Shown in pieces: positions 1,093-19,166 of a stretch of DNA of 22,982 bases. Source of the DNA: a virus; IMG/VR virus record IMGVR_UViG_3300024519_000020, positions 1-22,982 of that record. The stretch is one strand, 5' to 3'. The first letter of the stretch is position 1. Every line of letters begins with the position of its first letter. The notes below the pieces were generated by a model that saw only the letters and a list, made by a program, of their open reading frames with translations, was not told the DNA's origin and made no database searches. A program made the position numbers and the translations under genes.

Positions 1093-1100
1093 GGTGTGGA

Positions 1101-1738: not shown

Positions 1739-1769
1739 CAGGACATCACATTAAAAAAAAGGAGGGATC

Positions 1770-4232: not shown

Positions 4233-5442
4233 CCATCCGTTTGACGTCCTTTACGATCCTTACGATTACATTGGGCTGTTCGGTGGGCGTGGTGGTGGTA
4301 AATCCCATGCCATCGCCGAGTTTCTCGTTATCGCGGCGATGCAGAAAAGGGAACGCATTCTGTGTGGCCGCGAAATTCAGCTTTCGATCAAGGATTCCGT
4401 CAAATTTCTGCTTGAAAAAAAGATCGAAAAGCTTGGCGTCGGCCAGTATTTTGAGATTACACGCGATACGATCAAGTGCCTGACCACCGGAACTGTCTTT
4501 ATTTTCAAGGGGTTGAGTGACCAGACCTCGGAGTCTATAAAATCGTTTGAGGGGATCACGATCTGCTGGGTGGAAGAAGCTCATATGCTCACTCAAAGAT
4601 CGCTTGATTTGCTCTTGCCGACGATCCGCGAGGATGGAGCGAAAGTCATTTTTTCATGGAACCCGAAACTCCCGAAAGACCCTGAAGTCGGGGCTCCTGG
4701 CGATCCTGTGGCGAAATTTTTGTTGTGGGATGGAGGCCCAAAAAACTCAATCACGCGAAAAGTCTCCTGGCGCGATAATAAATTTTTCCCGGCAAGGCTC
4801 AATGAACTCCGGCTCTGGTGGAAAAAACACGATCCTAAGCGCTACATGCACGTGTGGGAGGGCGAGGAGGACGTGCGGTCCGATGCCATTATTTTCTATA
4901 GATGGAAAATCGCCAATTTCGTAGCTCCTCCAGGGACAAATTTTCTTTTCGGAGCTGACTGGGGGTTTTCACAGGCTCCCACCACCCTGGTGCGATTTTG
5001 GGTGGATATGGATTCGCGAAAAATCTACATCGATCATGAGGCATACGGCGTGGGAGTAGAGGTAACGGACACTCCGGCACTTTTTATGCAGGTTCCAGGA
5101 GCGCTGAATTGGCGTATTATCGCTGACTCGGAAAACCCACAGTTAATATCGCATATGCGAAGACAGGGCTTTAATATCGTTGGCGCTAAAAAAGGCCAGG
5201 GCAGTGTTGAGGTGGGGGTGAAGTGGCTGCAGGATTTTGATATCGTCGTGCATAGCAGATGCAAAAACACGATCAGTGAATTGTCAACATATAGCTATAA
5301 AATCGATAAGTTAACCGACAAACCAACCCAGGTGATCGTAAGAGAGCATGACCATATCATGGATGCATTACGATATGGTGCGGAGGACCTGATCCGCAAG
5401 GGCGATCTCATAAGTAGGACGATAAAAATGGTTGCGATATAA
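4210..5442 (+). CDS. terL: Terminase large subunit (PBSX/Terminase_3 type)
   Basis: This is the ATP-driven DNA packaging motor and nuclease. The ATPase domain has Walker A GGRGGGKS (25-32) and Walker B ICWVEEAH (118-125). The C-terminal RNase-H-like nuclease domain starts at LFGADWGF (Asp250), with IIADSE (Asp306) and HDHIMDALRYG (Asp381/Asp385) as further metal ligands. At 410 residues the length is normal for the family. I choose ATG 4210 (MEINLQIDHPFD) because the protein homology starts there; an upstream ATG at 4162 would add 16 residues and overlap the small subunit further. The Shine-Dalgarno site is weak, consistent with coupling to the small subunit. GATC sites are dense here (at least 15). 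Confidence 0.92.
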   Translation: MEINLQIDHPFDVLYDPYDYIGLFGGRGGGKSHAIAEFLVIAAMQKRERILCGREIQLSIKDSVKFLLEKKIEKLGVGQYFEITRDTIKCLTTGTVFIFKGLSDQTSESIKSFEGITICWVEEAHMLTQRSLDLLLPTIREDGAKVIFSWNPKLPKDPEVGAPGDPVAKFLLWDGGPKNSITRKVSWRDNKFFPARLNELRLWWKKHDPKRYMHVWEGEEDVRSDAIIFYRWKIANFVAPPGTNFLFGADWGFSQAPTTLVRFWVDMDSRKIYIDHEAYGVGVEVTDTPALFMQVPGALNWRIIADSENPQLISHMRRQGFNIVGAKKGQGSVEVGVKWLQDFDIVVHSRCKNTISELSTYSYKIDKLTDKPTQVIVREHDHIMDALRYGAEDLIRKGDLISRTIKMVAI

Positions 5443-5449
5443 AAAACAC

Positions 5450-5477
5450 TTGACAAAAAGATCAAAAATCATATCAT
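5450..5477 (+). promoter_or_regulatory. Sigma70-like promoter after the large terminase
   Basis: TTGACA at 5450-5455 and TATCAT at 5472-5477 stand 16 bp apart, just past the terminase stop. A perfect AAGGAGGTAAT ribosome site follows before the ATG at 5509. It lacks the TACCGGTA dyad of the three-copy module, so it is probably controlled differently and could start a separate unit through the nucleotide-metabolism genes. Confidence 0.7.
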
Positions 5478-5508
5478 ACAGGGGATGTTAACCAAAAAAG
5501 GAGGTAAT

Positions 5509-5904
5509 ATGGCGTTTAAATCGTTTGAAAACCCTATAATCATTAGACAAAAGACATGTGACCAGATCTCTGTCAGAGAAAGGTTAATTTCGCTAGGTGT
5601 GGCGTTTTGCAAAAAATACGATATCGCAAAACATACACATATGCTGCTTTTTTATGATCGCGATAAAGACAGGATGGCGCTCAGACCTATCAACACCGAT
5701 GATTACGATGCGGTGAAAATCCACATTGTCAAAGAGGGAAAGACCCATGGACATATAACTTGTTCTGTCCAGTGTACGAAATTTCTGTGCTGGTGTGGGC
5801 TGAAAGGTGACGATATTGGTATCCTGGAAATGCATTTTGACAAAAATCTGGATCTTATCGTATCGGAATCATTAGGAAAATTAAGGGAGAACAAAAATGT
5901 TTGA
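5509..5904 (+). CDS. Hypothetical protein, paralogue of the next gene
   Basis: The 131-residue protein is not recognised. Its central pattern (VAFCKKYDIAKHTHMLLFYDRDKDRMALRPI) matches that of the next protein (MVKKYQIYEKNKSARIYFDDETGRAAIEL), and the C-terminal halves also align (strand, turn, K-x-F-x-x-x-x-G/R-I, then a final D-x-x-x strand), suggesting a tandem duplication. This pattern of a short helix and an acidic strand resembles small AbrB-like phage proteins, but I would not assign that fold. It has extra cysteines (SVQCTKFLCWCG). The AAGGAGGTAAT site fixes the ATG at 5509 rather than the one at 5485. Confidence 0.65.
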   Translation: MAFKSFENPIIIRQKTCDQISVRERLISLGVAFCKKYDIAKHTHMLLFYDRDKDRMALRPINTDDYDAVKIHIVKEGKTHGHITCSVQCTKFLCWCGLKGDDIGILEMHFDKNLDLIVSESLGKLRENKNV

Positions 5905-6283
5905 AATGTATAAAAATAGTGGGACATACAGCGGATTATCTCATCAGTTTATGTCAATTTGGCCGTGTCATAATATTTATTTTAGCAAATCCATGGTCAA
6001 AAAATATCAAATTTACGAAAAAAATAAATCGGCGAGGATTTATTTTGACGACGAAACGGGTAGGGCTGCTATAGAGCTGGTCAATGGCGATAAAGATCCA
6101 AAGCAGCTTTTTCGCATCCAGAGCAACGGCAAATCTGCTGGTTGTTTTTTGATAGCAAAAAGCTTTATCCATCATCATCGCATCAGGCATGACAAAAAGT
6201 TGCGTTACGATTTCGTCTATGATCGAGAGACCGGTTTTTTTATCTTTGAGCCTGAGATCGAGGAGAAAATCTTAAATGTCTGA
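5897..6283 (+). CDS. Hypothetical protein, paralogue of the previous gene
   Basis: At 128 residues it is close in length to its neighbour and shares the KKY-x-I and Y-(F/D)-D-x-(E/D)-x-x-R-x-A-(I/L) pattern and the general order of strands. It lacks the Cys cluster of the neighbour, having instead SIWPCHNIYFSK near the N terminus and a His-rich KSFIHHHRIRHDKK stretch. The ATG overlaps the previous stop by 8 bp and follows AAGGGAG. It probably forms a pair or complex with its neighbour, by analogy only. Function unknown. Confidence 0.65.
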   Translation: MFEMYKNSGTYSGLSHQFMSIWPCHNIYFSKSMVKKYQIYEKNKSARIYFDDETGRAAIELVNGDKDPKQLFRIQSNGKSAGCFLIAKSFIHHHRIRHDKKLRYDFVYDRETGFFIFEPEIEEKILNV

Positions 6284-6551
6284 TGAGAGCATCTACGAAA
6301 AAAGCAAACAACGAGTGGAGTTTGAGGAGATGATGTCATATGCGGCGTATCGTGGTGCTCAAAAAGCCCTGTCAGAGGTTGGTCTTGCTGACGAAAAGGC
6401 AACCGAGGACATCCGGACAGTGCGGAGTCTCATACGATCTATCCGGATCGCCCAGGTGACTTTTTGGAAAACTGTAGTTCGGTGGGTGACGATAGGAGTT
6501 TTGACCGCTGTGCTCTATGAGACAGCAAGCCGACTTAACATACTGAAATAA
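6276..6551 (+). CDS. Small single-pass membrane protein, DUF6127-like
   Basis: The 91-residue protein has a charged N-terminal helix (YAAYRGAQKALSEVGL), the segment DEKATEDIRTVRSLIRSIR and then one hydrophobic membrane helix (about 64-87, WKTVVRWVTIGVLTAVLYETA). This order matches the DUF6127 type of small phage membrane proteins. The orientation would leave the long charged part in the cytoplasm. It overlaps the previous gene by 8 bp. It could be a lysis-related or membrane-anchor protein, but no function is established for the family to my knowledge. Confidence 0.65.
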   Translation: MSDESIYEKSKQRVEFEEMMSYAAYRGAQKALSEVGLADEKATEDIRTVRSLIRSIRIAQVTFWKTVVRWVTIGVLTAVLYETASRLNILK

Positions 6552-6560
6552 GGGGAGAAA

Positions 6561-7004
6561 ATGACACGCGTATCCTGGGAGAGCTATTTTTTGGGTATCG
6601 CAAAGCAGGTGGCGACACGGTCTACGTGCATGCGGCGCAAGGTTGGTGCCGTCATCGTCAAAGACGATCGCATCCTTGCGACTGGCTACAACGGGGCGCC
6701 TGCAGGTTTTGATCACTGTGATGAGATTGGCCGATGCAAAAAAGACTGTGCGAAAGCCCCGTCAGGAGCATATCACGACAAATGCGTCGGTGTGCATGCT
6801 GAACAAAACGCTATAGTGATGGCGGCGTACCACGGAGTATCTATTGCAGGAGGGTCGCTTTATTGCACCATTCAGCCGTGCGCGATATGTGCACGCATGC
6901 TGATCAATGCCGGGATCAGGGCGATATACCACACCGACGAATACCTGGATACCGATGCGATAGATGCGTTTATTGCGGCGGATGTGAATATCAAAAATCA
7001 CTGA
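6561..7004 (+). CDS. dCMP deaminase
   Basis: The protein has the cytidine/deoxycytidylate deaminase zinc site: HAE (79-81) with His79 as ligand and Glu81 as proton shuttle, and PCAIC (106-110) with Cys107 and Cys110. GYNGAPAGFDHC (42-53) is the standard dCMP-deaminase substrate loop, and Cys53, Cys59 and Cys63 in an insert could bind a second zinc as in T4-type enzymes. It converts dCMP to dUMP, the substrate of thymidylate synthase. No thymidylate synthase is in the window, but the next gene is a thymidylate kinase, so both raise dTTP supply. Length (147) is normal. AAGGGGAG precedes the ATG. Confidence 0.93.
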   Translation: MTRVSWESYFLGIAKQVATRSTCMRRKVGAVIVKDDRILATGYNGAPAGFDHCDEIGRCKKDCAKAPSGAYHDKCVGVHAEQNAIVMAAYHGVSIAGGSLYCTIQPCAICARMLINAGIRAIYHTDEYLDTDAIDAFIAADVNIKNH

Positions 7005-7017
7005 AAAAGGGGGAAAA

Positions 7018-7698
7018 ATGGAGAAAAAAAGAGGAAAATTTATCGTGCTTGAGGGCGTCAACGGGGCGGGAAAAACGACCCAAGCCGAACTGCTGGCGAA
7101 AAAGATAGGGAAAACTGGCAGGGATGTTGTTTGCACCAAAGAGCCTACACAATGGACGCTGCCTGGAATAATCCTGAATGGCGATTACGAGCTGATGAAA
7201 AAAGGCGATGGGATCACAATGACAAATGATGACGTCGAAGCGAATCTTTTTTTCCTTGATCGCCTGCAGCATATCCTTGATCCGCGATTAGGTATTTTGC
7301 ATATCCTGGATAGCGGTAAAGATGTCGTATGTGACCGTTTTTACTGGACATCTTATGTCTACAACGGACTTAATATTGGTTACGATAAAGCTGTGGAGCT
7401 AAACGAGATCTGCACAAAACTGCTTACCCCAGATCTGACTTTTTTTATCGATGTGCCCCCGGATGTGTGCCGCGAAAGGATCGTAAAAAGAAACGATCGC
7501 GAAAAAAATCGAACAGAAGCAGAGCTTTGCGATTTGAGAGACAGGTATTTTGACGCATTTAGCAGAAAGACCGAGTCTGATGGGCCCGTGATACAAGTAG
7601 AGTGTGGTTCTAGAGACAAAGAAGACGTTGCAGAGTTTATATCTAGTATATATACTAGATTCTGTTGCGATATGGAGAGAGGCAAAGCAATTTTTTAG
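7018..7698 (+). CDS. tmk: Thymidylate kinase
   Basis: It phosphorylates dTMP to dTDP. The P-loop is LEGVNGAGKTTQ (11-22), followed by the substrate segment NLFFLDRLQH (76-85) and the DRF motif (106-108) with the SYVYNG continuation typical of Tmk. An Arg-rich lid (KRNDREKNRTE) comes around residues 155-170. Length (226) is slightly above the usual 205-215. The last 20 residues are unusual: codons 208-214 (SSIYTRF region) are made by the 20-bp palindrome that also lies in the initiator gene, so this tail may have been added or overwritten by that element. GGGGGAAAA precedes the ATG. Stop is TAG. Confidence 0.92.
   Translation: MEKKRGKFIVLEGVNGAGKTTQAELLAKKIGKTGRDVVCTKEPTQWTLPGIILNGDYELMKKGDGITMTNDDVEANLFFLDRLQHILDPRLGILHILDSGKDVVCDRFYWTSYVYNGLNIGYDKAVELNEICTKLLTPDLTFFIDVPPDVCRERIVKRNDREKNRTEAELCDLRDRYFDAFSRKTESDGPVIQVECGSRDKEDVAEFISSIYTRFCCDMERGKAIF
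7641..7660. repeat. 20-bp perfect palindrome, copy 2
   Basis: The same 20 bases as at 2497-2516 lie near the 3' end of tmk. In both places they are in frame and encode SSIYTR. The flanks downstream (TCTTGTAACGATAT there, TCTGTTGCGATAT here) are also somewhat alike, suggesting a slightly larger element. Confidence 0.95.
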
Positions 7699-7769
7699 TT
7701 TTGGATGCGAAAAAAAGACTGTGAAGACTCAATTTTTAACCAATGAGAGAAGCAAAACGAGGAGGAAAA

Positions 7770-8081
7770 ATGAGGGGATGGTTGGTGGTTACGACGGGAG
7801 GCGAAAAAGTTTTGAACCCTGAGAAAATTTTATTTATGGAAGCGGACTCGGATAGGGCTTGTAAAATAACTATGGATAATGATGAGGAATTTTGGGTCAT
7901 CGCTACTGTCAAAGAGGTCCGGGACAGCCTTATGGAAAGCGATATGGCGTGGATTGGGGCAATTGAGCGAGCGAAAGAAGAGACAAGAACGGTGAAAATG
8001 AGTGAAGCGGAATTGACCGAGTTATTTGAGTCTGGCCGACAAGATGTAGGGCGGAGCTTTGGAGGGGAAGAAAAATGCTAA
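7770..8081 (+). CDS. Small protein with FlbD-like N-terminal half
   Basis: Residues 3-55 (LVVTTGGEKVLNPEKILFMEAD...EEFWVIATVKEVRDSL) follow the pattern of FlbD-like proteins: beta strand, LNP turn, strand, then V-x-(E/A)-x-x-x-E-(V/I). The C-terminal half (about 60-103) is helical and charged and unlike FlbD. In bacteria FlbD-like proteins act in flagellar regulation; in a phage this may simply be a small all-beta fold. An AGGAGGAAAA site fixes the ATG at 7770, not the in-frame ATG at 7743. It overlaps the holin gene by 7 bp. Function is unknown. Confidence 0.6.
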   Translation: MRGWLVVTTGGEKVLNPEKILFMEADSDRACKITMDNDEEFWVIATVKEVRDSLMESDMAWIGAIERAKEETRTVKMSEAELTELFESGRQDVGRSFGGEEKC

Positions 8082-8533
8082 CTTTGTTCGGCAGTATAAT
8101 CGGTTTCCTGACCTCGGCGATCCCGGACTTGCTTGAGCTTGTACGGGATCGCTCCGACCGGCGACATGAGCTTGCGATCATGGACAGACAGCTGGCAGCT
8201 CAAAAACAGGGGCACACGGAGCGTCTCGATGAGATCCGTATTATGGGCGATATCGCGGAGACGAAAGCGCTTTACTCACACGCCGGCACTCCGGCTGGTG
8301 TCCCCTGGGTGGATGCCATGCGTGCAGCTGTGCGGCCGGTCATAACATACTGTTTTTTTGGGCTTTTCTCAGTAGTGAAAATTGCAGGACTCTGGCAGCT
8401 GGTCAGCAGTGGTGAAGCTGTGGCCGAGGCTTTTTTAGCGATCTGGGACTCTGAGACACAAGCACTTTTCGCCGCTGTAATGAGCTTTTGGTTTGGGCAA
8501 AGGGCGTTGACGAAATTTAAGGGAGATAAATGA
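8075..8533 (+). CDS. Holin, three-TM GTA/phage type
   Basis: The 152-residue protein has a hydrophobic N-terminal helix (4-20), a charged coiled-coil-like middle (22-65), and two C-terminal membrane helices (about 87-107 and 126-142) separated by a short acidic loop. The GTPAGVPWVDAMRAAVRPVITY segment preceding TM2 is characteristic of the holin family of phages and gene-transfer agents (Holin_3TM). It would open the inner membrane to let the endolysin at 9644 out. The N terminus overlaps the FlbD-like gene and the stop overlaps the next start (ATGA), so it is part of a coupled unit. Confidence 0.85.
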   Translation: MLTLFGSIIGFLTSAIPDLLELVRDRSDRRHELAIMDRQLAAQKQGHTERLDEIRIMGDIAETKALYSHAGTPAGVPWVDAMRAAVRPVITYCFFGLFSVVKIAGLWQLVSSGEAVAEAFLAIWDSETQALFAAVMSFWFGQRALTKFKGDK

Positions 8534-9003
8534 TGGAAGAAAGAATTGACGAAATTAAATCAAAGGCATTGGATCTTGAGATCAAACGACATCAGAAAAT
8601 CATGTCAGGAGGCTATCTTAAAGGGTCTCAAGAGGATCTAAAATATTTTCATCTGGCTTCTGAAGAATTGGCGAAAGTTGCTGGCGAAAAAATGATTCCG
8701 GCATGCATCAGGCCGCCACATTTAAGACATCTCAAAATTGAGGATATATCAAAGGTCGTTTTCAGCGGATCGCTTTGCTGCTCAGCAGCAGTGCTTATCG
8801 TCAAAACGTGGGGATTGGGCAAAGATAAAGGGTTTTGTCTTGTCGCCGATGCGATTAATAAAGGCATCGTAGATCAGACATATTACGGCGACACATCTGG
8901 CGCATACTCAGTCTGCAAATTTTGTACAAAAAATTTCTATACCGTATATTTCCTTTACGACCTATTAAAAATCAAGGAGTGGGCCAATGGCAGGCATAAA
9001 TAA
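8530..9003 (+). CDS. Hypothetical protein with Cys-rich C-terminal half
   Basis: This 157-residue protein is not recognised. The N-terminal half is helical and charged; the C-terminal half has [15 protein letters not shown] and [10 protein letters not shown] (CxxC), with an extra Cys at FCLVAD. The pattern might be a metal site but is not the same as in the small Cys-rich proteins at 12 kb. Two adjacent ATG codons are present at the start; the first overlaps the holin stop. The 3' end overlaps the SSB gene by 17 bp. No membrane helix is certain, although [20 protein letters not shown] is moderately hydrophobic. Confidence 0.6.
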
Positions 9004-9388
9004 AGTAATTCTCATCGGCAACCTGGGCAGGGACCCGGAGATCAGTTATTCCAAGCAGGGATTGGCAGTGGTAAATTTCCCAATTGCTACCAGTGAACAG
9101 TGGACTGACAAAAATACCGGAGATAGGCAGGAGAAAACAGAATGGCACAAGGTGGTTGCGTTTGGCAAACCTGCTGAGACCCTTGCGAAATATCTGTCTA
9201 AAGGGAGGCCGGTTTATATTGAAGGTCGGTTACAGACCAGAAGTTACGAAAAGGACGGGCAGACTCACTATATCACGGAAGTGGTGGTGACCGGCTTTCA
9301 GTTTTTGGGCGGCGGTGAAAAAGGTGGAACTACTCGCAAGCCTGGGTCGGGCGGTTACCACAGTCAGGATGATGATATTCCGTTTTAA
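8987..9388 (+). CDS. ssb: Single-stranded DNA-binding protein
   Basis: The OB-fold domain is clear: [19 protein letters not shown] (1-19), [23 protein letters not shown] (49-62) and [24 protein letters not shown] (78-101). A Gly-rich linker leads to the acidic tail ending DDDIPF, which binds partner proteins of replication and repair. It is 133 residues long, shorter than bacterial SSB because the linker is short, as in other phages. AAGGAG precedes the ATG. It would protect single strands formed at the origin and by the nuclease at the left edge. Confidence 0.95.
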
Positions 9389-9419
9389 CGCGTACTACTT
9401 ATTTTAACTTGGAGGGAAA

Positions 9420-9647
9420 ATGAAACTTAAAGAAGCAATAGTAAAAAGTAAAAATGATGGCGTCACAATCAGGAGACTCGCTTGGTTATGTAATCGGCAA
9501 ATACGCGATCGGCAAATTAGATATGTAAGAAAAATGGGCGAATTCCCGCCATTTTTAGCTAGGAGATCCATGCTGGGCGATTTTGTCCCATGGATGCCAT
9601 CGCCATCAGATAGGTATGCCGATGACTGGGAAGTAATTGAGCCTTGA
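9420..9647 (+). CDS. DUF2829/Tad2-like small protein, possible anti-Thoeris
   Basis: The 75-residue protein begins with KLKEAI and R-R-x-x-W and ends with the pattern FVPWMPSPSDRYADDWEVIEP (residues 55-75), which corresponds to the W-x-P-S-x-x-D-x-x-A-x-D-W ending of DUF2829 proteins. Members of that family include Tad2, which binds signal nucleotides of the Thoeris defence system and so blocks it. Whether this one binds such a ligand cannot be told from sequence. It sits between SSB and the endolysin, and its stop overlaps the TTG start of the endolysin. An AGGGAAAA site precedes the ATG. Confidence 0.7.
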   Translation: MKLKEAIVKSKNDGVTIRRLAWLCNRQIRDRQIRYVRKMGEFPPFLARRSMLGDFVPWMPSPSDRYADDWEVIEP

Positions 9648-10090
9648 GACACGCGACATCCATGGGTGTTGATCTCATCAAGCGATTTGAGGGATTTTCT
9701 CCGGCTCCGTACGTGTGTCCTGGTGGTCACGAGACGATCGGCTACGGTCACGTGATCAGAGATCGCGAGATATGGGACACGATCGATGAGCAGACAGCAA
9801 CCTTGCTGCTCATGCAGGATATTGCAGTTGCTGAGAGTGCAGTATAGCGACTGATCACTGTGCACCTGGTCGACTGCCAGTTTGACGCGCTCGTGTCTTT
9901 TGCTTACAACGTCGGCTCCGGTGCTCTCCAGAGATCGACGCTCAGGCGCAAGGCGAATCGCGGAGACCACCAGCTTGTACCGCGTGAGCTGATGCGATGG
10001 GTCAAGGCCGGTGGGCGACGGATGCTTGGGCTTGTGCGGAGACGGAGAGCCGAGGGGAAATTATACGAGGAGGGAAAATTATGGATTTAG
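9644..10090 (+). pseudogene. GH24 phage lysozyme (endolysin) split by an in-frame amber codon
   Basis: The catalytic triad Glu16-x8-Cys25-x5-Thr31 of P22-type lysozymes is complete (FEGFSPAPYVCPGGHETIGYGH). The frame then stops at TAG (9845-9847) after AESAV. The same frame resumes with RLITVHLVDCQFDALVSFAYNVG, the standard C-terminal lobe, and runs to a TAG at 10090. One C-to-T change (CAG to TAG, Q68) would explain it. So it is either a broken gene, a suppressible amber or a sequencing error. Start is TTG 9644 or ATG 9662; the TTG overlaps the previous stop. The enzyme cuts peptidoglycan once the holin opens the membrane. Confidence 0.85.
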
Positions 10091-10707
10091 ATAAGGGGCA
10101 AGAGCTAGTCTTGTGCGTTGATAGATCGGATTTGTCAAATCACTGGTTTAGCGATCGCGTGATATCTGTCGCATATCTGCACAAAATGCAACAGACGATT
10201 TTATCCGGGTGTGTATTTATCGCAAGGCGCGACGTCGAAGAAGATCCCGGCTGGAAGCAGATCATCCCCTGGGTCGTGATACAGACACCGACAAAAACAG
10301 CGATATACCAGATAGCGGGAGCCGAAAAGCGGCTGCACGATCTGTGGTCGGTGGGTATCGGAGGGCATGTGAACTCTTATGATGCGCTATGTACGTCTCG
10401 AGACGGCAAAATTATTTTAGACGATGCCATCAGGGCTGGTATGAGCCGGGAGCTGGATGAGGAGTTGCCTGGGAGACCACCCGGTGAAGAGCCTGTCTTT
10501 TGCGGTGTTATAAATGATGACAGCACAGAGACCGGCAGGCATCACCTGGGGTTGGTTTTTAAAATTGATGCGGCAGATTATAAAGGATACGCTCCAGGCG
10601 AGGAGCTAAAAAATTTTAGATTTGTTGAAACCCTTGGCTGTCAAGGGTTTTACGAGTTTGACAGCTGGTCAAAACTGTCACTGGATTTTTTCATGAGTGA
10701 AAAGTGA
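10081..10707 (+). CDS. Nudix/MutT-like predicted phosphoesterase (COG4112 type)
   Basis: The 208-residue protein follows the COG4112 pattern: an N-terminal strand, GCVFIARRDVEED, IPWVVIQT, YQI, then SVGIGGHVNSYDAL (91-103) and the Nudix-box remainder AIRAGMSRELDEELPG (116-131) with the metal-binding Glu residues. The insertion between the first Gly and RELxEE is normal for this group. Substrates for the family are not settled; Nudix enzymes hydrolyse NDP-X compounds. ATG 10081 follows AGGAGGGAAAATT, overlapping the endolysin end by 10 bp, and is preferred over 9997. The 3' end overlaps an inverted gp46 fragment. Confidence 0.75.
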   Translation: MDLDKGQELVLCVDRSDLSNHWFSDRVISVAYLHKMQQTILSGCVFIARRDVEEDPGWKQIIPWVVIQTPTKTAIYQIAGAEKRLHDLWSVGIGGHVNSYDALCTSRDGKIILDDAIRAGMSRELDEELPGRPPGEEPVFCGVINDDSTETGRHHLGLVFKIDAADYKGYAPGEELKNFRFVETLGCQGFYEFDSWSKLSLDFFMSEK

Positions 10708-10827
10708 TGTTGTGATTGCTGATTCAAACCCTTCGACACTCTCAAAATCATCATCTTTAATCGAGATATCATAGAGTCCAGAATTCTCCTGGGTCAGCTT
10801 TATGTCTATGCTTTGTTCAGTCGCCAT
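10678..10827 (-). pseudogene. Truncated Mu gp46-like baseplate protein fragment
   Basis: Read on the minus strand this is a 49-codon ORF starting at ATG 10827. It begins MATEQSIDIKLTQENSGLYDIS and continues KDDDFESVEGFESAITTSLFT, the typical N-terminal third of phage GP46 baseplate proteins, and then stops at HEKIQ. The rest (about two thirds) is missing, and it overlaps the Nudix gene 3' end by 30 bp. No ribosome site is evident. It looks like a leftover brought in by recombination in reverse orientation. A short functional peptide cannot be excluded. Confidence 0.6.
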
Positions 10828-11019
10828 CGTTAAAATATGCCAATAATATCAAGTATTTGCGTTTGAGTGTATTTTCCAACACCTCTTCCATGCGGCTGTG
10901 ATGCAGGACTGACGCGGCTCTTAGCGTTTTTTCGATTTAAGACATGGCGCATATACATGTATACACCATGAGGAGAAAGTGCGCTATACAGCATCCTCAC
11001 GCATCGATTTTCTGCGAAA
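10828..11019. other. Spacer without a supported gene
   Basis: Together with the gp46 fragment this fills the roughly 400 bp between the Nudix stop and the next promoter-led unit. A 54-codon ORF on the minus strand (10830-10994) ends just before the gp46 fragment, with no family pattern or ribosome site, so I do not call it a gene. A 12-bp palindrome TATACATGTATA lies at 10952-10963. Confidence 0.6.
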
Positions 11020-11119
11020 AAAAATAATCTTTTTACAAAAAAAAGCTTGACATTACCGGTAAGGGGTATATAATGTAGTCAAGCTCAGGGAGAGAGCGTA
11101 ACGCAAAAGGGAGTACGGA
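11020..11119 (+). promoter_or_regulatory. Promoter module copy B
   Basis: TTGACA (11047-11052), a 16-bp spacer beginning with the perfect dyad TTACCGGTAA (11053-11062), and TATAAT (11069-11074). AGCTTGAC (11044-11051) and GTCAAGCT (11078-11085) form an 8-bp inverted repeat around the core. An A-rich tract lies upstream. The leader GGGAGAGAGCGTAAC and a GGGAG ribosome site follow. It matches copies A and C almost throughout. Confidence 0.88.
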
Positions 11120-11320
11120 ATGATGAGTGGATGGATTATCAAAAAAAAAGAGACTGGATCGATCAGATCTTACATGGCTGATGACAGCACCGGTTGGAGA
11201 GTATCACAACATCACACGATTAGCACCGGATCGACTTTGGACAAACTCGGAATCACGGCAGAAAAAATCGAGGCCGCCAGAGCCGCCAGGGATAGGGTTT
11301 TGAGAGCGATCGGACAATAA
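11120..11320 (+). CDS. Hypothetical 66-residue protein
   Basis: I do not recognise this protein. It has a basic N terminus (WIIKKKETGSIRSY), a mixed middle, and an amphipathic C-terminal helix rich in Ala, Arg and Glu (KIEAARAARDRVLRAIG). No Cys and no membrane segment. Two ATG codons are adjacent (11120 and 11123); GGGAG precedes them. It is the first gene behind promoter copy B, which may mean early and high expression, and it is followed within 15 bp by a Cys-rich gene. Confidence 0.65.
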   Translation: MMSGWIIKKKETGSIRSYMADDSTGWRVSQHHTISTGSTLDKLGITAEKIEAARAARDRVLRAIGQ

Positions 11321-11334
11321 AAAAAGGGGGAACG

Positions 11335-11514
11335 ATGAATCAGGAATTGAGAGATGCCGAGACGGAGAGACATTGCCTGCATTGCAGACACCGCCAGGAT
11401 TTTGAGTCCGGCAGATATTATGATTGTAAGCGCTACTTTTGCAAACGCAATCATGATGGATTCCGATGGGAGGACATCGACCAGGCCCTTGATTGCGACG
11501 ACTACATCTACTAA
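11335..11514 (+). CDS. Small Cys-rich protein, possible zinc ribbon
   Basis: This 59-residue protein has the spacing Cys14-x2-Cys17-x13-Cys31-x4-Cys36 plus Cys54 in DCDDY at the end, with many charged and aromatic residues between. Such CxxC...C...C peptides usually bind zinc. No family is assigned. An AAGGGGGAACG site precedes the ATG, and the stop falls before a terminator-like hairpin at 11536. It is the second and last gene of the unit led by promoter copy B. Confidence 0.7.
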   Translation: MNQELRDAETERHCLHCRHRQDFESGRYYDCKRYFCKRNHDGFRWEDIDQALDCDDYIY

Positions 11515-11535
11515 ATACTTGTATTTAAAAGACAC

Positions 11536-11565
11536 TTTGCTACCGACATTCATGTCGGTAGCAAA
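11536..11565 (+). terminator. Strong hairpin ending the copy-B unit
   Basis: A perfect 13-bp stem (TTTGCTACCGACA/TGTCGGTAGCAAA) closes a TTCA loop. It is followed by only short T runs, so it is a weak or imperfect intrinsic terminator, or an RNA-end stabiliser. Copies A and C share sequence on both sides of this place, so the hairpin looks inserted into the upstream part of copy C. Confidence 0.55.
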
Positions 11566-11569
11566 TTAA

Positions 11570-11683
11570 TTCGACTATCCGAAAAAAAATAATCTTTTTT
11601 GTAAAAAAAGCTTGACATTAGCGGTAAGGGGTATATAATGTAATCAAGCTCAGGGAGAGCGTAACCAAAATGGAGGATGGAAC
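11570..11683 (+). promoter_or_regulatory. Promoter module copy C
   Basis: TTGACA (11612-11617), a 16-bp spacer with TTAGCGGTAA (one change from the copy-B dyad), TATAAT (11634-11639), then TCAAGCT pairing with AGCTTGA. The upstream GACTATCCGAAAAAAAATAA is shared with copy A. The leader carries GGAGGATGGAAC ahead of the ATG at 11684. It would drive the long unit to the terminator at 14490. Confidence 0.88.
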
Positions 11684-11911
11684 ATGAGAGCATTATCAAA
11701 AAAAGCAGTATTGTCAGCACTGAGATCAGTACCGGATGCCCGCATCATGCGCAATGGACATGTGGACTGGGACAATGACGCATACGTGCCGAGAGAGACG
11801 ATACATGAATTATCCTGGGAAGATGATGTGCTGGATGCAGTTTTTGAGGACTGCGAGGGCTCAAGGCCGGTCCGTTACTACAAAGCCAGCACTTATTTTT
11901 TAACTCATTAG
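11684..11911 (+). CDS. Hypothetical 75-residue acidic protein
   Basis: I do not recognise this protein. The N-terminal 20 residues are basic and helical (RALSKKAVLSALRSVPDARIMR); the rest is acidic with many Trp, Asp and Glu (VDWDNDAYVPRETIHELSWEDDVLDAVFEDCEG). Such acidic small phage proteins often mimic DNA or bind host enzymes, but I have no evidence for that here. GGAGGATGGAAC precedes the ATG, and it is the first gene behind promoter copy C. The stop is TAG, followed by a short hairpin and the GC hairpin copy 3. Confidence 0.65.
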   Translation: MRALSKKAVLSALRSVPDARIMRNGHVDWDNDAYVPRETIHELSWEDDVLDAVFEDCEGSRPVRYYKASTYFLTH

Positions 11912-11942
11912 ATTATCCCGCCGGACAGGCGGATTACTAACC

Positions 11943-11962
11943 GCCCCGGCTCCGGCCGGGGC
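11943..11962 (+). other. Intergenic GC hairpin, copy 3
   Basis: A perfect 8-bp stem (GCCCCGGC/GCCGGGGC) with a UCCG loop lies between the stop of the 75-residue gene and the ribosome site AAGGGGG of the next gene. No U-run follows. A smaller hairpin, CCGCC-ggaca-GGCGG, lies at 11918-11932. Confidence 0.75.
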
Positions 11963-11981
11963 ACTAAAAAAGGGGGTGGCT

Positions 11982-12152
11982 ATGAGTTACGAGGCTGTCA
12001 CATGCATGAGATGTCAAGTTTTTATTTTTGACAAATGCACACGCTACACGCCAGCTAACTACAAAGTCGACATGTACCAAAAAAATTTACAGGCCCGGAA
12101 ATCGGTCCAGGCCATCGGCTGTAAAAATTTTTTGCACCTCGACGCAAAATAA
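11982..12152 (+). CDS. Small Cys-rich protein of 56 residues
   Basis: The protein has Cys8-x2-Cys11-x7-Cys19 and Cys47 in AIGCKNF, a likely four-ligand zinc site with a long loop before the last ligand. The end (GCKNFLHLDAK) is like that of many small phage zinc proteins. No family name is given. AAGGGGGTGGCT precedes the ATG. The gene is shorter than usual annotation cut-offs and easily missed. It lies between GC hairpins copy 3 and copy 4, in the unit led by promoter copy C. Confidence 0.7.
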   Translation: MSYEAVTCMRCQVFIFDKCTRYTPANYKVDMYQKNLQARKSVQAIGCKNFLHLDAK

Positions 12153-12160
12153 TCCACACC

Positions 12161-12178
12161 GCCCCGCTTCGGCGGGGC
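12161..12178 (+). other. Intergenic GC hairpin, copy 4, UUCG loop
   Basis: A perfect 7-bp stem (GCCCCGC/GCGGGGC) closes a UUCG tetraloop. It lies after the stop at 12152 and before the AAAAAGGAGG site of the next gene. The shorter stem against copy 3 keeps full pairing, as expected for a conserved RNA structure. Confidence 0.8.
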
Positions 12179-12196
12179 TTAAAAAAGGAGGACGAC

Positions 12197-12541
12197 ATGG
12201 ACAAAAAACTTGCAGCGCTCGAAGCAGACATTGAGCGCACATCAGATATTTTGATAGGCGTGTTTGACCAAGGTGGCGAAGTGGATCTTGAGTTTTGCAG
12301 AGACAAAGCGGATGAGATTTGTCCTGAGGTTGGAACATATTGCGACACAGTGCCGCCCCGCATCTCATGCATAATAGCTGCAAAAATCGCGTACATGGAA
12401 AACGCCACGGAAGATCAATCTGATTGTGAGTTTTGCCTCATGTCTGATATGGGGGGCAAGAGCAGCTGCAACCCGAGGCTGACAAGTGATATTTTGGGTC
12501 GGATGAAGAATCTTAGGAAAAAAATTATCAAAAAAACATGA
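12197..12541 (+). CDS. Cys-rich hypothetical protein of 114 residues
   Basis: Seven cysteines occur (34, 42, 49, 58, 77, 80, 91), including DCEFC. C58-x18-C77-x2-C80-x10-C91 resembles the spacing in the proteins at 1101-1520 and 12569-12919, so they may be distant relatives with one metal site. The N terminus is a charged helix (LAALEADIERTSDILIG). A basic C-terminal tail (MKNLRKKIIKK) could bind nucleic acid. AAAAGGAGGACGAC precedes the ATG. Function unknown; a metal-binding role is inference from the Cys pattern. Confidence 0.7.
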   Translation: MDKKLAALEADIERTSDILIGVFDQGGEVDLEFCRDKADEICPEVGTYCDTVPPRISCIIAAKIAYMENATEDQSDCEFCLMSDMGGKSSCNPRLTSDILGRMKNLRKKIIKKT

Positions 12542-12568
12542 GAGCCGGCGGGGGCACAGGAGGAAATT

Positions 12569-12919
12569 ATGAAACGAGAGACATTGCACAGAGCAAAAAT
12601 TGTTGGAAAAAAAGTAATGCTTGCATTAGTTGCTGACTATGATGCTGAGACCGAAGTAATTGATTTTTTTGAAAAACATCTCTACATTTTAGACCCAGAT
12701 GGCGGCCGCCGTGAACATCATGGGGAAAAAACTTGTGACGCTATGCATGAGCTCTGGAAATCAGGCAAAAGAAATTCTGCATGTCGAATGTGTCCATTTG
12801 CGATGGCTGAGGACCGGGGAATGATCGTCGCATGTGATGAGCTGCCGGAAGAAAATTGCGATGCAATTGATGCGGGCAGGACTGTTGTCGACGCCGCAAT
12901 CGACGCTGCGTTTAATTAA
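12569..12919 (+). CDS. Cys-rich hypothetical protein of 116 residues
   Basis: The N-terminal part (about 10-45) looks like two strands and a helix (KVMLALVADYDAETEVIDFFE). The C-terminal half has C56-x15-C72-x2-C75-x13-C89 plus Cys97, in the motif ACRMCPFAMAEDRG, close in spacing to the 114-residue neighbour and to the left-operon Cys protein. A metal site is likely; no family is recognised. CAGGAGGAAATT precedes the ATG. The 27-bp gap before it holds GCCGGCGGGGGC, possibly the decayed right arm of another GC hairpin. Confidence 0.7.
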   Translation: MKRETLHRAKIVGKKVMLALVADYDAETEVIDFFEKHLYILDPDGGRREHHGEKTCDAMHELWKSGKRNSACRMCPFAMAEDRGMIVACDELPEENCDAIDAGRTVVDAAIDAAFN

Positions 12920-12928
12920 CCAACCACC

Positions 12929-12946
12929 GCCCCGCTCCGGCGGGAC
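12929..12946 (+). other. Intergenic GC hairpin, copy 5
   Basis: A 7-bp stem with one mismatch closes a UCCG loop, between the stop at 12919 and the ribosome site of the recombination-like gene. It is the last of the five related hairpins. Confidence 0.65.
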
Positions 12947-12964
12947 TTAATCAAGGGAGACGAT

Positions 12965-13915
12965 ATGACAGATTTTCAAAACGTTCCGGCGTATACTTCC
13001 GGAAATCTGCCGGAAATCGCAAAAACCGGAGCAATACAGACAAAAAACGAGTATTTTACGGCTCAACGGGTCCAGGTGCCGCGTGAGATCGAGATAGTGC
13101 GATCCCAGCTGCTGGCAGAGGCCAGATTTGCGGGTGAGGATTTTTATTACAGTTTTGAGATAAAAACAAAGCATGGTCCGCAGATTATCGAGGGCCCATC
13201 GATTGGGCTTGCAAGTTCAGCTACGAGACTCTATCGTAATTGTTTCACCGACATTTTTTTGGAGGAGGAAAAAGAGTATTCTTGGGTTTTCAAGGCTGTT
13301 TTTGTTGATCTGGAAAACGGCTTTCACTGCTCGCGAATCTATGTGCAGCCACGTCCGATCCCTCTGTCAAAATCAAAAAGTTTAAATTTTGCTGATAAAA
13401 GAAAGGTCCTGATGGAGTGCCAAAGCGGAGAGTCAAAAGCGATCAGAAACGTTGCGGTCATGGGCTTGCCAGGCTGGTTGCTTGCTCACGCTGTCGAGAC
13501 TGCAAAAAGATCGGTAGTGGAATCATCAGGGGATGACAGCAAAAAAAAGCTGGATTCCGTGATCCGATATTTTGATAAGATCGGGGTGAAGCCAACTGAC
13601 CTGACGAGATTCCTTGGGGGCCCGGAAAAAAGCTGGACAGAGTTTGAAATCGCGAAATTGAGGGAGACAGCATCTACGATCAGACAGGGCGTTGCCACCG
13701 TAGATGAGATTTTTCACACTGGGGAGCAGCACCAGGAGACGCGGCGTGATCCACAGCTCGATACGCTAAAACCTGATCCGCCAGAGATACCATTATTGAA
13801 ACCAGCAGATGAAAAAACAGCTGCTGCATATGATAGACTTGATGACGGGATTTTTGACAACGACGGGGTGGAGACCCAGGAGGAGCGAAAACAGAATAGG
13901 AAAATGAGGTTGTGA
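12965..13915 (+). CDS. Conserved phage protein, probable recombination/annealing role
   Basis: The 316-residue protein has a segment I associate with phage proteins that accompany RecB-like nucleases: FAGEDFYYSFEIKTKHGPQ (56-73), EGPSIGLASSATRLYRNC (76-93), VDLENGF (114-120) and QSGESKAIRNV (153-163). Past residue 200 it has a helical DNA-repair-like part (YFDKIGVKPTDLTRFLGG) and a disordered acidic tail. It may be a single-strand annealing protein pairing with the left-edge nuclease, but this is inference: I see no RecT, Erf or Rad52 motif that settles it. GGGAGACGAT precedes the ATG. It lies downstream of promoter copy C. Confidence 0.5.
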   Translation: MTDFQNVPAYTSGNLPEIAKTGAIQTKNEYFTAQRVQVPREIEIVRSQLLAEARFAGEDFYYSFEIKTKHGPQIIEGPSIGLASSATRLYRNCFTDIFLEEEKEYSWVFKAVFVDLENGFHCSRIYVQPRPIPLSKSKSLNFADKRKVLMECQSGESKAIRNVAVMGLPGWLLAHAVETAKRSVVESSGDDSKKKLDSVIRYFDKIGVKPTDLTRFLGGPEKSWTEFEIAKLRETASTIRQGVATVDEIFHTGEQHQETRRDPQLDTLKPDPPEIPLLKPADEKTAAAYDRLDDGIFDNDGVETQEERKQNRKMRL

Positions 13916-13925
13916 AAGGAGGGGT

Positions 13926-14288
13926 ATGGACAAAAAAGGGGCAGAAGTGGTCGTTGAGGTGCACGGGCTTGATGATGTTTTTAAAAACCCCATGGAACAG
14001 GTTATAACATTTGACCCGTGGGGGAAGACCAAAATCCCGCTTTTGTATCCAGCCAGGAAGCTCATACGTACAGGGTGCAGGCTGGAATCAGGCGATGATG
14101 ACCCGGTCCTGGTTGATATTTCTATACGTGGAGAGGATCAAAAAATCCTGGATCTTTTTTTTACTGTCAGTGCGGAATTGGATGATGATATAGTGCCAAT
14201 GCAGGAGCTATCAACCTGTAAATTTATCAACGGTGTGTGTATGTATCTGTATTTCTTGAAATTTAGCGATAAACGGAGGATGAAATGA
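13926..14288 (+). CDS. Hypothetical 120-residue protein
   Basis: I do not recognise this protein. It is acidic in the middle (ESGDDDPVLVDISIRGEDQK), mostly predicted beta by eye, with an N-terminal EVVVEVHG strand and a FDPWGKTKIP segment. Two Cys near the C terminus (STCKFINGVCMYLYF) are six residues apart and do not form the metal pattern of its neighbours. GAGGGGT precedes the ATG. The stop overlaps the following small gene start (ATGA), so the two are translated together. No membrane segment is certain. Confidence 0.6.
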   Translation: MDKKGAEVVVEVHGLDDVFKNPMEQVITFDPWGKTKIPLLYPARKLIRTGCRLESGDDDPVLVDISIRGEDQKILDLFFTVSAELDDDIVPMQELSTCKFINGVCMYLYFLKFSDKRRMK

Positions 14289-14428
14289 TTAAAAAAATGA
14301 GTGTGATTATGTGTGGTGTAGCGATGTGTTTATATTTGATACTGCCGCCGACGTGGCATGTACCGGATGGGTGGCATTTTCCTTATCCGCCACCGCCCGG
14401 GTGGATCGTTGAAACAAAAAATGTCTGA
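14285..14428 (+). CDS. Small membrane or exported Pro/Trp-rich protein, spanin-like at most
   Basis: The 47-residue protein begins MIKKMSVIMCGVAMCLYLIL, a basic end followed by one hydrophobic helix, and continues with a Pro/Trp/His-rich tail (PPTWHVPDGWHFPYPPPPGW). This could be a signal anchor or a lipoprotein-like signal, although neither Cys has a good lipobox (VIMC and VAMC). Pro-rich short outer-membrane lipoproteins are typical of Rz1-type spanins, but without an overlapping Rz partner I do not assign it. GGAGG precedes the ATG, which overlaps the previous stop. It is the last gene before the terminator at 14490. Confidence 0.5.
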   Translation: MIKKMSVIMCGVAMCLYLILPPTWHVPDGWHFPYPPPPGWIVETKNV

Positions 14429-14475
14429 TGCAGCAATAAATCAGCTGCTAAGCAGGGACCAGGCACAATAAGTGC

Positions 14476-14504
14476 TTGAAAAAATAGACAAACTCGGGTA
14501 TGCT
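14476..14504 (+). promoter_or_regulatory. Weak candidate promoter overlapping the terminator
   Basis: TTGAAA at 14476-14481 and TATGCT at 14499-14504 stand 17 bp apart. The -10 lies in the terminator stem and loop, so a transcript would begin near the right arm and avoid the full hairpin. It would explain how the head genes are transcribed after the terminator, but the match is modest. Confidence 0.3.
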
Positions 14505-14526
14505 CATGTGTACCCGAGTTTTTTTA
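14490..14526 (+). terminator. Rho-independent terminator
   Basis: An 11-bp perfect stem (AAACTCGGGTA/TACCCGAGTTT) with a 10-base loop is followed by a run of T. It closes the accessory unit led by promoter copy C and separates it from the methylase and head genes. Confidence 0.9.
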
Positions 14527-14544
14527 TTTTCGGAGGGGAGAAAA

Positions 14545-15288
14545 ATGGTATACATGGGGAGCAAGAAAAAAATCAGGCGCCAGCTTTTGCCTTATATTTT
14601 GAGAGACAGGAAGCCGGGACAGGCGTATGTTGAGCCTTTCCTTGGCGGCTCAAATATGATGGAAATAGTGCCGGGCGCTAACAGGATCGGGAATGATCTC
14701 AATTACTATGTGATCGAGATGTGGAAGGCTCTGCAAAACGGGTGGCAGCCGCCGATGTGGGTGAGCAAAGAAGATTATATGCACATAAGGAGAAACAAGG
14801 AAAAATATCCGCCCCAGCTTGTGGGTTTTGTTGGGAGCTGTTGTGCTGCTTTTGGCACGTGGTTCCACGGTTACGCTCAAATAGACGGGGTCAATTTTGC
14901 TACCAGGGGGCACAAGGTTTTGCTTCAGCAGATCCAGAAATTGACTGATGTGAAATTATATTGCAGAGACTACAGGCGGCTTGATTATCCTGATAACTCT
15001 ATCATTTATTGTGATCCTCCGTACGATGGGGTTTCAGAATACGATGGAGTTCCTGATTTTGACACAGATAATTTCTGGCCCTGGGCTAGGGAAATGTCCA
15101 GAGACCATAGCGTGTATGTCAGCGAGTATAAGGCGCCAGCTTATTTTAAGTCAATTTGCGACATAGAAGTGAGCAGAATTTTCCCGGGGAAACCAACTAC
15201 AAGGGTAACCGAGCGTCTTTTTGTGCTCGATGACGGCAGATGCGACAGGGTGCCAATTTTGAGCCAGCGGAACGGGGAGCTGTTTTGA
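14545..15288 (+). CDS. dam: DNA adenine-N6 methyltransferase, D12/Dam class
   Basis: It transfers a methyl group from SAM to adenine N6. The first motif is YMGSKKKI at the N terminus with YVEPFLGGSN (28-37) as SAM-binding loop, and the catalytic DPPY is at 157-160 (IIYCDPPYDG). The 247 residues are near the usual 260-280. The recognition site cannot be read from the protein; Dam-type enzymes of this class usually act on GATC, which is frequent in this DNA. ATG 14545 follows GGAGGGGAGAAAA; an upstream ATG at 14500 lies in the terminator and is rejected. The stop overlaps the TTG start of the radical SAM gene. Confidence 0.88.
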   Translation: MVYMGSKKKIRRQLLPYILRDRKPGQAYVEPFLGGSNMMEIVPGANRIGNDLNYYVIEMWKALQNGWQPPMWVSKEDYMHIRRNKEKYPPQLVGFVGSCCAAFGTWFHGYAQIDGVNFATRGHKVLLQQIQKLTDVKLYCRDYRRLDYPDNSIIYCDPPYDGVSEYDGVPDFDTDNFWPWAREMSRDHSVYVSEYKAPAYFKSICDIEVSRIFPGKPTTRVTERLFVLDDGRCDRVPILSQRNGELF

Positions 15289-16187
15289 AAATATCGTTGC
15301 TTACAGATGCACGTGATCACAATCTCGCCTTGATGAAAATTTCAGCATGGCACAAAGCCCAGGGAGATGAGGTGATGCTTAATGCTCCGATTTTTCCAGC
15401 TGATTTTACTTATGCTTCTGTCTTGTTTGAAAAAAATCTTGACGAGTATAGCTTGCTTGCCGATGAGATAGGCGGACCCGCGGTGGATGGCTCTGAGTTA
15501 CCAGCTGAGATCGAATCTATGATGCCTGATTACGATCTGTATCCCCACAACCAATTTAGCCTCGGGTATACATATCGACCGTGTGATAACCAATGTGATT
15601 TTTGCAAAGTCCCAAAAATGGCTGGTGATCGCGATCATCACTCAATACATGAGTTTTACGACCACCGATTTAAGACTATCTGTCTGCTAAACAACAACAC
15701 CTTCCAAGATCCCCGGTGGAAAGAGACATTTGAAGAGATATGGGAGCTTGACCTTTCAGTAAAAGACGAAAACGGGTATGATATCAGGCTGTTGGATGAC
15801 GATAAAGCGGCTGCACTGAAAAAGACAAGATGGGATAGCTGTCTGCATTTTTCCTGGGACAGGATGTCCGATGAGGACCTCGTCATGCACAATGTAGAGA
15901 TCCTAAAACGACATAAAATTAGAAATGTGGTCTTCCATGTATTGATAGGATACAACACGACAGATGAAGATGATCTCAGACGATGCGAGATGCTTGCAAG
16001 GGCTGGCGTACCAGCTGTATATCCTATGCCATACAAGTATACTGATTTCGGGAGCAGGTTGAGACGGTTTATGTTTTCACATTTCTACGCCAATCAAAAA
16101 TATAAAGGAGTGCCTTTTGCTGAGTCTTTTAGGGATTATCGATCCTCTGGATTTAGAGGCCAGGAGCAGACAGAGGGCTTGTTTTGA
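15285..16187 (+). CDS. Radical SAM protein with cobalamin-binding-like N terminus
   Basis: The 300-residue protein has Cys100-x3-Cys104-x2-Cys107 (YRPCDNQCDFCK), the [4Fe-4S] site of radical SAM enzymes. The N-terminal 50 residues (ISLLTDA...LALMKISAWHKAQGDEVMLN) resemble the start of B12-binding-domain radical SAM proteins, although the short length suggests a reduced domain. The core continues as a partial TIM barrel with HFSWDRM and VVFHVLIGYNTTDEDD. The substrate is unknown; place between a DNA methylase and the portal gene could mean DNA or virion modification. Start is TTG overlapping the methylase stop, with GGGGAG upstream; no ATG fits. Confidence 0.8.
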   Translation: MKISLLTDARDHNLALMKISAWHKAQGDEVMLNAPIFPADFTYASVLFEKNLDEYSLLADEIGGPAVDGSELPAEIESMMPDYDLYPHNQFSLGYTYRPCDNQCDFCKVPKMAGDRDHHSIHEFYDHRFKTICLLNNNTFQDPRWKETFEEIWELDLSVKDENGYDIRLLDDDKAAALKKTRWDSCLHFSWDRMSDEDLVMHNVEILKRHKIRNVVFHVLIGYNTTDEDDLRRCEMLARAGVPAVYPMPYKYTDFGSRLRRFMFSHFYANQKYKGVPFAESFRDYRSSGFRGQEQTEGLF

Positions 16188-17500
16188 AACTCAGCATTAA
16201 AGACATCATAGCCAAGATCCTGCCGGGACCGGCTGTTGAAAAAAGTTTGTCCCAGGACCAGGTGAGACAGTATCTCAGATCCGGGATGGCTTTTTGTTGG
16301 GATGGGTGCGACGAGCATTTTTTGTCCCAGCAACAGGCCTACTACTATTTTGAAAATATCTCGCCGCTGCAATCCACGGTCAAAAAGATCGCTCAGACTG
16401 TAGCAGGCCTCCCGTTGGTTATCGTGTCTGACAACAATCCGGATGAGATGATCACGGATCACCCAATCCTGGATATCCTCCGCGGCCCAGGATATGGCCT
16501 GACAGGGCAAAATCTGCTTACAGATCTTTGTATCTCATACCTGCTTACAGACGAGGCCTGGTTGTTACTCATAGGTAGGGTTGCAGCTGAGCCTATAGCG
16601 TCAATGGCAGTACGTCCGTATGCAGTAGGCACGGATGGGGGCGGGAGCGAGGAAGAGGATTATCCAAATATAATCCGAGTTACACAGGCCAACAAGCAGT
16701 ACATTTTTGAGTCTGTATCATATGGAGGTGTTACAAGATACTTTGATACCCCTGGCGGCAAGGGGGCGATGAAAGAGCTTGTCCCTGTGATCGGGACCAA
16801 AGCCCGCAACCGCGCCTTCCGCGGTCTGTCTCGCCTTATGCCTTTGCAGAGGGTTTTGATGCAGATGATGAGCGGCGATATTTATAACGCAAAGCTGTTA
16901 CAGAGTGGCGCCAAACCTTTTATGGTTTTAAGCCCAAAGGAAGGGCTTAGTGACAAAGAAATGGAAACCATTGTGCAGTCGTTGGAAGATCTGAAAGGCA
17001 CTCAGAACGTGGGTGGGATTTTTATCCTGCCTACATCAATGGATGATGTTTCAAAGCCGAATACGAACCGGGATATGGAGTACCAGGAAGGGCTTAAAGA
17101 AAACAAACAACGGATCGCCGATGCATATTTTGTACCACTGGCTTTGATCAGCACCGAAACAATGACTTACAGTAACTACACTACTGCACAAACGGCGTTT
17201 TATGACGGGCCGGTGAACAACCTGGTTAGCAACCTTTTCCCCCAAATCGTCAACGTGCTGAGTGTGCGGCTTGGGATTGCTGGTGAAAAATGGAGAGTCA
17301 CTTACAATCAGCATGATGTCCCGGCACTCCAGTCACGCCAGGCTGAGCGTATGTCTCAGCTTGCAAAGACATACACGATGACACTCAATGAGCTGAGGGA
17401 TGTCATGGGACTTGAGCCGGTACCGGTGGGCGAGGAAATCTATATGCCCGGCAATTTAATCCCAGTCACTATCCCGGGCATGGTGGGGGATGATATCTGA
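16184..17500 (+). CDS. Portal protein, HK97-like
   Basis: The 438-residue protein has the HK97/Phage_portal pattern: an N-terminal segment, HPILDILRGPGYGLTGQNLLTDLC (about 90-115), AWLLLIGR, a long central stem region, and NKQRIADAYFVPLALISTETMTYSNYTTAQTAFYDG (about 306-340), the conserved portal helix and turn. It forms the 12-subunit ring at the head vertex through which DNA is packaged. Start is TTG, overlapping the radical SAM stop (TTGA). The next gene starts at its last base (TGATG). It leads the head operon: portal, minor head, protease, capsid. Confidence 0.9.
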   Translation: MKLSIKDIIAKILPGPAVEKSLSQDQVRQYLRSGMAFCWDGCDEHFLSQQQAYYYFENISPLQSTVKKIAQTVAGLPLVIVSDNNPDEMITDHPILDILRGPGYGLTGQNLLTDLCISYLLTDEAWLLLIGRVAAEPIASMAVRPYAVGTDGGGSEEEDYPNIIRVTQANKQYIFESVSYGGVTRYFDTPGGKGAMKELVPVIGTKARNRAFRGLSRLMPLQRVLMQMMSGDIYNAKLLQSGAKPFMVLSPKEGLSDKEMETIVQSLEDLKGTQNVGGIFILPTSMDDVSKPNTNRDMEYQEGLKENKQRIADAYFVPLALISTETMTYSNYTTAQTAFYDGPVNNLVSNLFPQIVNVLSVRLGIAGEKWRVTYNQHDVPALQSRQAERMSQLAKTYTMTLNELRDVMGLEPVPVGEEIYMPGNLIPVTIPGMVGDDI

Positions 17501-18507: not shown

Positions 18508-18531
18508 GAAATTCGGGATTTCCGAATTTCT
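18507..18531 (+). other. Hairpin between minor head protein and protease genes
   Basis: A perfect 10-bp stem (AGAAATTCGG/CCGAATTTCT) with a GATTT loop begins at the stop codon. No T-run follows; the protease ribosome site GGAG comes 3 bp later. It may process the transcript or tune translation of the protease; termination is unlikely. Confidence 0.6.
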
Positions 18532-18544
18532 GTGGAGAACAAAA

Positions 18545-19165: not shown

Positions 19166-19166
19166 A

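Follow-up and report, generated by a model that had tools for sequence, protein, structure and literature searches.

Three sites in the genome of a tailed phage appear to be diverged copies of one strong early-promoter cassette for the host σ70, in which a UP-like A/T tract and consensus -35 and -10 boxes are followed by TCAAGCT as the initial transcribed region and by a short leader that holds a ribosome site. Duplication and inversion would have set this cassette before the nuclease operon on the left and two units on the right, all of which would be turned on at the same time once the phage has infected its host. Most likely, the 16-bp spacer would carry a repressor site whose quality differs between the copies, with one of them (R1) having the best, and a phage HTH protein, perhaps the divergently encoded XRE-type one, would bind the spacers and turn the three promoters down together. 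To this reading as a whole, with its duplicated cassette, graded spacer operator and joint shutdown by a phage HTH protein, we give a probability of about 0.5; the copies, how far they extend and the genes behind them are observed, and transcription, timing, the operator and the operator's protein are the parts that we infer. Co-regulated early promoters are ordinary as such, and the interest lies in a map of early control, with three predicted starts and one candidate regulator, for a phage of which no close sequenced relative was found.

The DNA analysed (the window) is the 22,982-base IMG/VR record IMGVR_UViG_3300024519_000020, part of a tailed phage whose genes include those for portal, capsid, terminase and lysozyme, together with a dCMP deaminase and a Holliday junction resolvase. 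The copies are L, on the minus strand (1598-1557), and R1 and R2, on the plus strand (11044-11085 and 11609-11650). When aligned, the three regions are homologous over ~110 bp, from the A/T tract, where the alignable stretch begins at CGAAAAAAAATAA, to the ribosome site. The core of each is TTGACA-N16-TATAAT flanked by AGCTTGA/TCAAGCT: in L, the -35 box lies at 1595-1590, the spacer (CTACCGTTACAGGGTA) at 1589-1574, the -10 box at 1573-1568 and TCAAGCT at 1563-1557; in R1, the same elements lie at 11047-11052, 11053-11068 (TTACCGGTAAGGGGTA), 11069-11074 and 11079-11085; and in R2, at 11612-11617, 11618-11633 (TTAGCGGTAAGGGGTA), 11634-11639 and 11644-11650. By the repeat alignment, the A/T tracts upstream occupy 1599-1626 (minus strand, UP-element-like) for L, and 11015-11043 and 11580-11608 (plus strand) for R1 and R2, respectively. 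Transcription is predicted to start near 1561 (L, from the position of the -10 box), 11081 (R1) and 11646 (R2), and TCAAGCT sits where that start is expected.

The strict pattern AGCTTGACA-N14..20-TATAATGTARTCAAGCT has exactly three matches in the window and a mean of 0.00 in shuffled sequences, and in a scan of positions 1-20000 only L, R1 and R2 match the σ70 hexamers at 12 of 12 positions. That all three are perfect, against zero in shuffles, and that the homology continues through the leader, are arguments for a copied cassette. A profile built from the three copies scores 110-115 bits on each of them and detects no fourth copy in the window. All of this bears out the first-pass annotation, which had described three near-copies from the A-rich tract to the ribosome site, each with both consensus boxes, a 16-bp spacer, the AGCTTGA/TCAAGCT pair and a kept leader. 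Separately, a near-consensus promoter (TTGACA-16-TATCAT) is found in an intergenic gap at 5450-5477 (plus strand), without the tract, spacer or leader of the module.

The likeness between L and R2 extends further upstream (11548-11609 versus 1599-1660; 62 nt, 82%). Because R2 resembles L in this far-upstream part and in the leader, but R1 in the spacer, it seems to be the copy closest to the common form. The leader of L, with its GGGAGG ribosome site, spans 1527-1556 on the minus strand (30 nt, 93% with R2) and precedes a start codon that is probably at 1520, by analogy with R2, or else at 1526; that of R2, aligned with it, spans 11651-11683, and that of R1 (11086-11119), placed by the repeat alignment, is the most diverged of the three. 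The retention of the leader had been taken as a hint of either RNA-level control or duplication. Attenuation or translational control through the leader would explain its conservation, and a 4-bp AGCTC/GAGC pairing is possible in all three; however, the leaders fold no better than shuffled sequences (z of +0.41, -0.85 and +0.06) and their conservation can be explained by the age of the copies alone, which makes this explanation very improbable. The other half of the proposal, a single promoter-leader module duplicated into opposite operons, is the one that the data support.

The three consensus promoters precede non-structural operons, in which a nuclease gene and small genes of no known family lie downstream. 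The left operon (minus strand) starts with a gene for which no family was found in the family searches (1101-1526), continues with a second one of no assigned function after a family search (789-1064) and ends with a PD-(D/E)XK nuclease gene that runs off the contig (3-746; PF12705, 2e-9; phrog_69 exonuclease, 1.7e-5). On the plus strand, the R1 unit consists of a 66-aa gene with no accepted family (11120-11320) and a 59-aa gene with no family found (11335-11514), while the R2 operon opens with a 75-aa gene, again with no family found (11684-11911), and includes downstream a 316-aa protein (12965-13915) that belongs to phrog_3657, of function not known (1.6e-34); from its position alone, it is possibly an annealing protein. 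Between the R1 unit and R2 there is a 13-bp perfect hairpin (11536-11565, z -8.0) with TACCG/CGGTA arms, which has a T-rich tail on the minus strand only and is a possible terminator.

A hairpin, GCCCCGGC-UCCG-GCCGGGGC or variants of it, is repeated between the genes of the L and R2 operons, on the transcribed strand and just upstream of ribosome sites, and occurs nowhere else in the window. Four of the five copies have a C(UNCG)G loop: in the R2 operon (plus strand), those at 11943-11962 (UCCG), 12161-12178 (UUCG) and 12929-12946 (UCCG, a weak fold), and in the left operon (minus strand), that at 1073-1092 (UCCG, z -3.2). The fifth, at approximately 762-782 on the minus strand of the left operon, is degenerate, with a UCAG loop, and not significant by itself. 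The R2 stretch 11940-11962 is identical over 23 nt to the transcribed strand at 1095-1073. Since they lack a T-run, these hairpins more likely serve processing or stability than termination. Promoter, leader and hairpins are thus common to the operons behind L and R2, which speaks for a common origin of the two and for the directions in which they would be transcribed.

The first-pass annotation had also placed an operator dyad common to the three copies within the spacer, and this part fared worse. The TTACCGGTAA dyad pairs at 5/5 positions in R1 (11053-11062), 4/5 in R2 and 3/5 in L, and is thus perfect in R1 only; when each spacer is shuffled, its p value is 0.011 in R1, 0.26 in R2 and 0.24 in L. 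The spacer is also more variable than the core that flanks it: L and R2 agree at 11/16 spacer positions, but at 6/6 in each hexamer and 11/11 from the -10 box through TCAAGCT, and across the copies -35, -10 and TCAAGCT are near invariant. This pattern is the opposite of what is expected for a strictly conserved operator. There is no excess of TTACCGGTAA sites in the window (7 with up to 2 mismatches, 6.5 expected), and none lies near the start of the XRE gene itself. An alternative dyad, TACC-N7-GGTA, pairs at 4/4 in L and R1 and 3/4 in R2, but arms of 4 bp are not significant within 16 bp.

A rival explanation is that the three are unregulated strong early promoters, copied for their strength, whose spacers drift with no operator in them, the R1 palindrome being due to chance. 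That the spacer varies more than any other part of the core, that the dyad p values are ~0.25 in L and R2 and that neither an integrase nor a CI-like repressor was seen among the ORFs and family searches of this partial genome are all in line with it. Against it stand the R1 dyad (p ~0.01), the frequency of spacer dyads in comparable phage promoters and the XRE gene divergent to L, and we regard it as possible, if somewhat doubtful. Imperfect operators of graded strength are, however, common in phages. A candidate repressor site in the spacer is plausible, at roughly even odds, and spacer repressor control stays so because the same design is found in Streptococcus prophages and, in part, in an unrelated phage (L004), both of which are described below.

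As to the protein that would act on the spacers in the cassette reading, the candidate is an XRE-type protein of 100 aa with one HTH domain (PF13560, 2e-10), encoded at 1770-2072 on the plus strand, divergently from L. The stop of its gene overlaps by 4 bases the start of the next one, whose N-terminus is of the Lin1244 type and which weakly matches a replication initiation family. Given its size, its single HTH and this overlap, the protein looks Cro-like rather than CI-like, and the overlap with a replication-type gene means that it may not be the repressor. Its predicted structure (mean pLDDT 50) is too poor for a fold search, and the protein bears no notable likeness to the XRE proteins that other phages encode close to TASCGKTA spacers. 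Accordingly, of the proposed joint control of the left operon and the two units by a spacer-bound repressor, one half holds up better than the other: co-regulation of the L, R1 and R2 operons is likely, judging from the duplicated module, whereas the unconserved dyad, the lack of a site at the XRE start and the Cro-like character of the protein count against the repressor as it was drawn.

In phage λ, operators overlap the PL and PR promoters, two opposite early operons are under similar promoters, and the first gene of the rightward one encodes a small HTH protein and adjoins a replication gene. The window is similar in having opposite, predicted early operons under similar promoters and a small HTH gene by a replication-type gene, but differs in that no multiple tandem operators, CI-like protein or lysogeny genes were seen in it.

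A further candidate for the operator is the outer pair, with a regulator bound at both halves. AGCTTGA (over the -35 box) and TCAAGCT (over +1) are 28 bp apart and identical in L, R1 and R2, and they also occur together in L004 and in a Geobacteraceae prophage (L127). Nevertheless, TTGA belongs to the -35 box and many other phage promoters carry TCAAGCT with no upstream AGC, so that the pairing needs explaining for 3 bases only (~1/64), and these would have been copied along with the cassette. TCAAGCT after TTGACA-N17-TATAAT-N4 is widespread among the promoters of Streptococcus prophages, which form a large family, and is seen in a handful of other phages as well, nearly always without AGC. 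Compared with 17 stretches for a scrambled heptamer, more than 118 were found with the real one, but as most of the 118 come from one redundant Streptococcus family, the enrichment outside it is only modest. The Geobacteraceae instance, the only match in 84,980 GTDB species representatives, faces antisense DNA, amounts to about the chance expectation and was discarded as such. As operator evidence the pairing is weak, and an operator made of the outer pair is improbable.

The Streptococcus prophages are instructive for the spacer operator of the cassette reading. In them, a constant frame, TTGACA-17-TATAATNNNNTCAAGCT, and a constant leader enclose varied palindromic spacers (with dyads such as TTGCGGTTAAACCGCA, TACGATTTAAATCGTA and CTTGAGAAAATCTCAAG; shuffle p mostly 0.0004-0.06), and wherever a divergent repressor-like HTH gene is readable, each spacer type is matched to its own HTH type. 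Prophages with paired spacer and HTH types include L012, L018, L011, L013, L014, L026, L037, L022 and L024, among others, and they represent a natural experiment, in which the operator changes along with the repressor in an otherwise constant promoter. With these (among them phiARI0285-1, IPP46 and Javan phages) the window shares the A/T tract, TTGACA, TATAAT-N4-TCAAGCT, a leader with a ribosome site and a divergent HTH gene. They have, however, a 17-bp spacer, strong dyads, one copy per record examined and a CI-like repressor of ~250 aa, in contrast to the 16-bp spacer, weak dyad, three copies and 100-aa XRE of the window. Their leader, TAAGGAAATAACAAAAACAAACCGGAGG, is not homologous to that of the window beyond TCAAGCT, and the best profile match outside the window has an E of ~0.005. 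As the window has only the 100-aa XRE and no divergent CI-like repressor of ~250 aa, its promoter is not filed as a member of this spacer-operator group. A literature search found no paper on the pneumococcal prophage repressor and operator.

L004 offers a partial parallel. Two of its promoters (3573-3601 and 5742-5770, minus strand) share TTGACAAAGGGAAAG and both have AAGGGAAAG beside the -35 box; in one of them the spacer is the full palindrome GGGAAAGCTTTCCC, of which the second promoter has the first half only, and the outer AGCTTGA/TCAAGCT pair of L004 stands before a gene. Spacer palindromes of the form ATAGCG-TTA-CGCTAT or TTACCG-TTA-CGGTA were also seen between perfect -35 and -10 boxes in other phage contigs (L129/L143, L134, L136, L138, L144, L146 and L132). 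A more speculative and rather unlikely generalization is that a fixed promoter frame (UP tract, TTGACA, TATAAT, N4, TCAAGCT) has been reached by convergence, or passed around, among unrelated phages and acts as a socket into which different spacer operators fit; the window phage would then use the socket in three places, with operators of graded quality. If so, a new immunity would take no more than the replacement of 16-17 bp and of the repressor.

Repeated sites before phage genes are known from other systems. The SAS/ESAS of cluster K mycobacteriophages are short start-codon sequences, some with 17-bp inverted repeats upstream (PMC3203893); the window resembles them in having a repeated element before several genes, some with an inverted repeat, but what is repeated here is a whole σ70 promoter and leader up to the ribosome site. 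The stoperators of cluster A mycobacteriophages are asymmetric genome-wide sites that stop elongation (PMC9283540, PMC6550527), and in both cases a single regulator could act at several genome sites, although those of the window are confined to three promoters.

No close relative of the phage was found in IMG/VR, INPHARED or the GTDB representatives, and none turned up in IMG/VR or INPHARED when the XRE and the 316-aa proteins served as queries. Its terminase has distant relatives only (up to 47%), and TTGACA-N15..18-TATAAT is absent from three of these distant terminase-relative records. The module DNA has no match in INPHARED; in IMG/VR, the strict module was found only in L004, and with no AGC required, in L004 and one Streptococcus-type record (L090).

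Elsewhere in the window, the lysozyme gene (9644-10090, plus strand) is interrupted at 9845-9847 by a TAG codon in frame, which is flanked by the N- and C-terminal halves of PF00959 with no change of frame between them, and this may be a broken gene, read-through or a sequence error. A radical SAM-type protein (phrog_9298, 1e-48) is encoded at 15240-16187 (plus strand), between the DNA adenine methylase and portal genes. Finally, an identical 20-nt perfect palindrome, ATCTAGTATATATACTAGAT, occurs at 2497-2516 and 7641-7660, within two unrelated genes.
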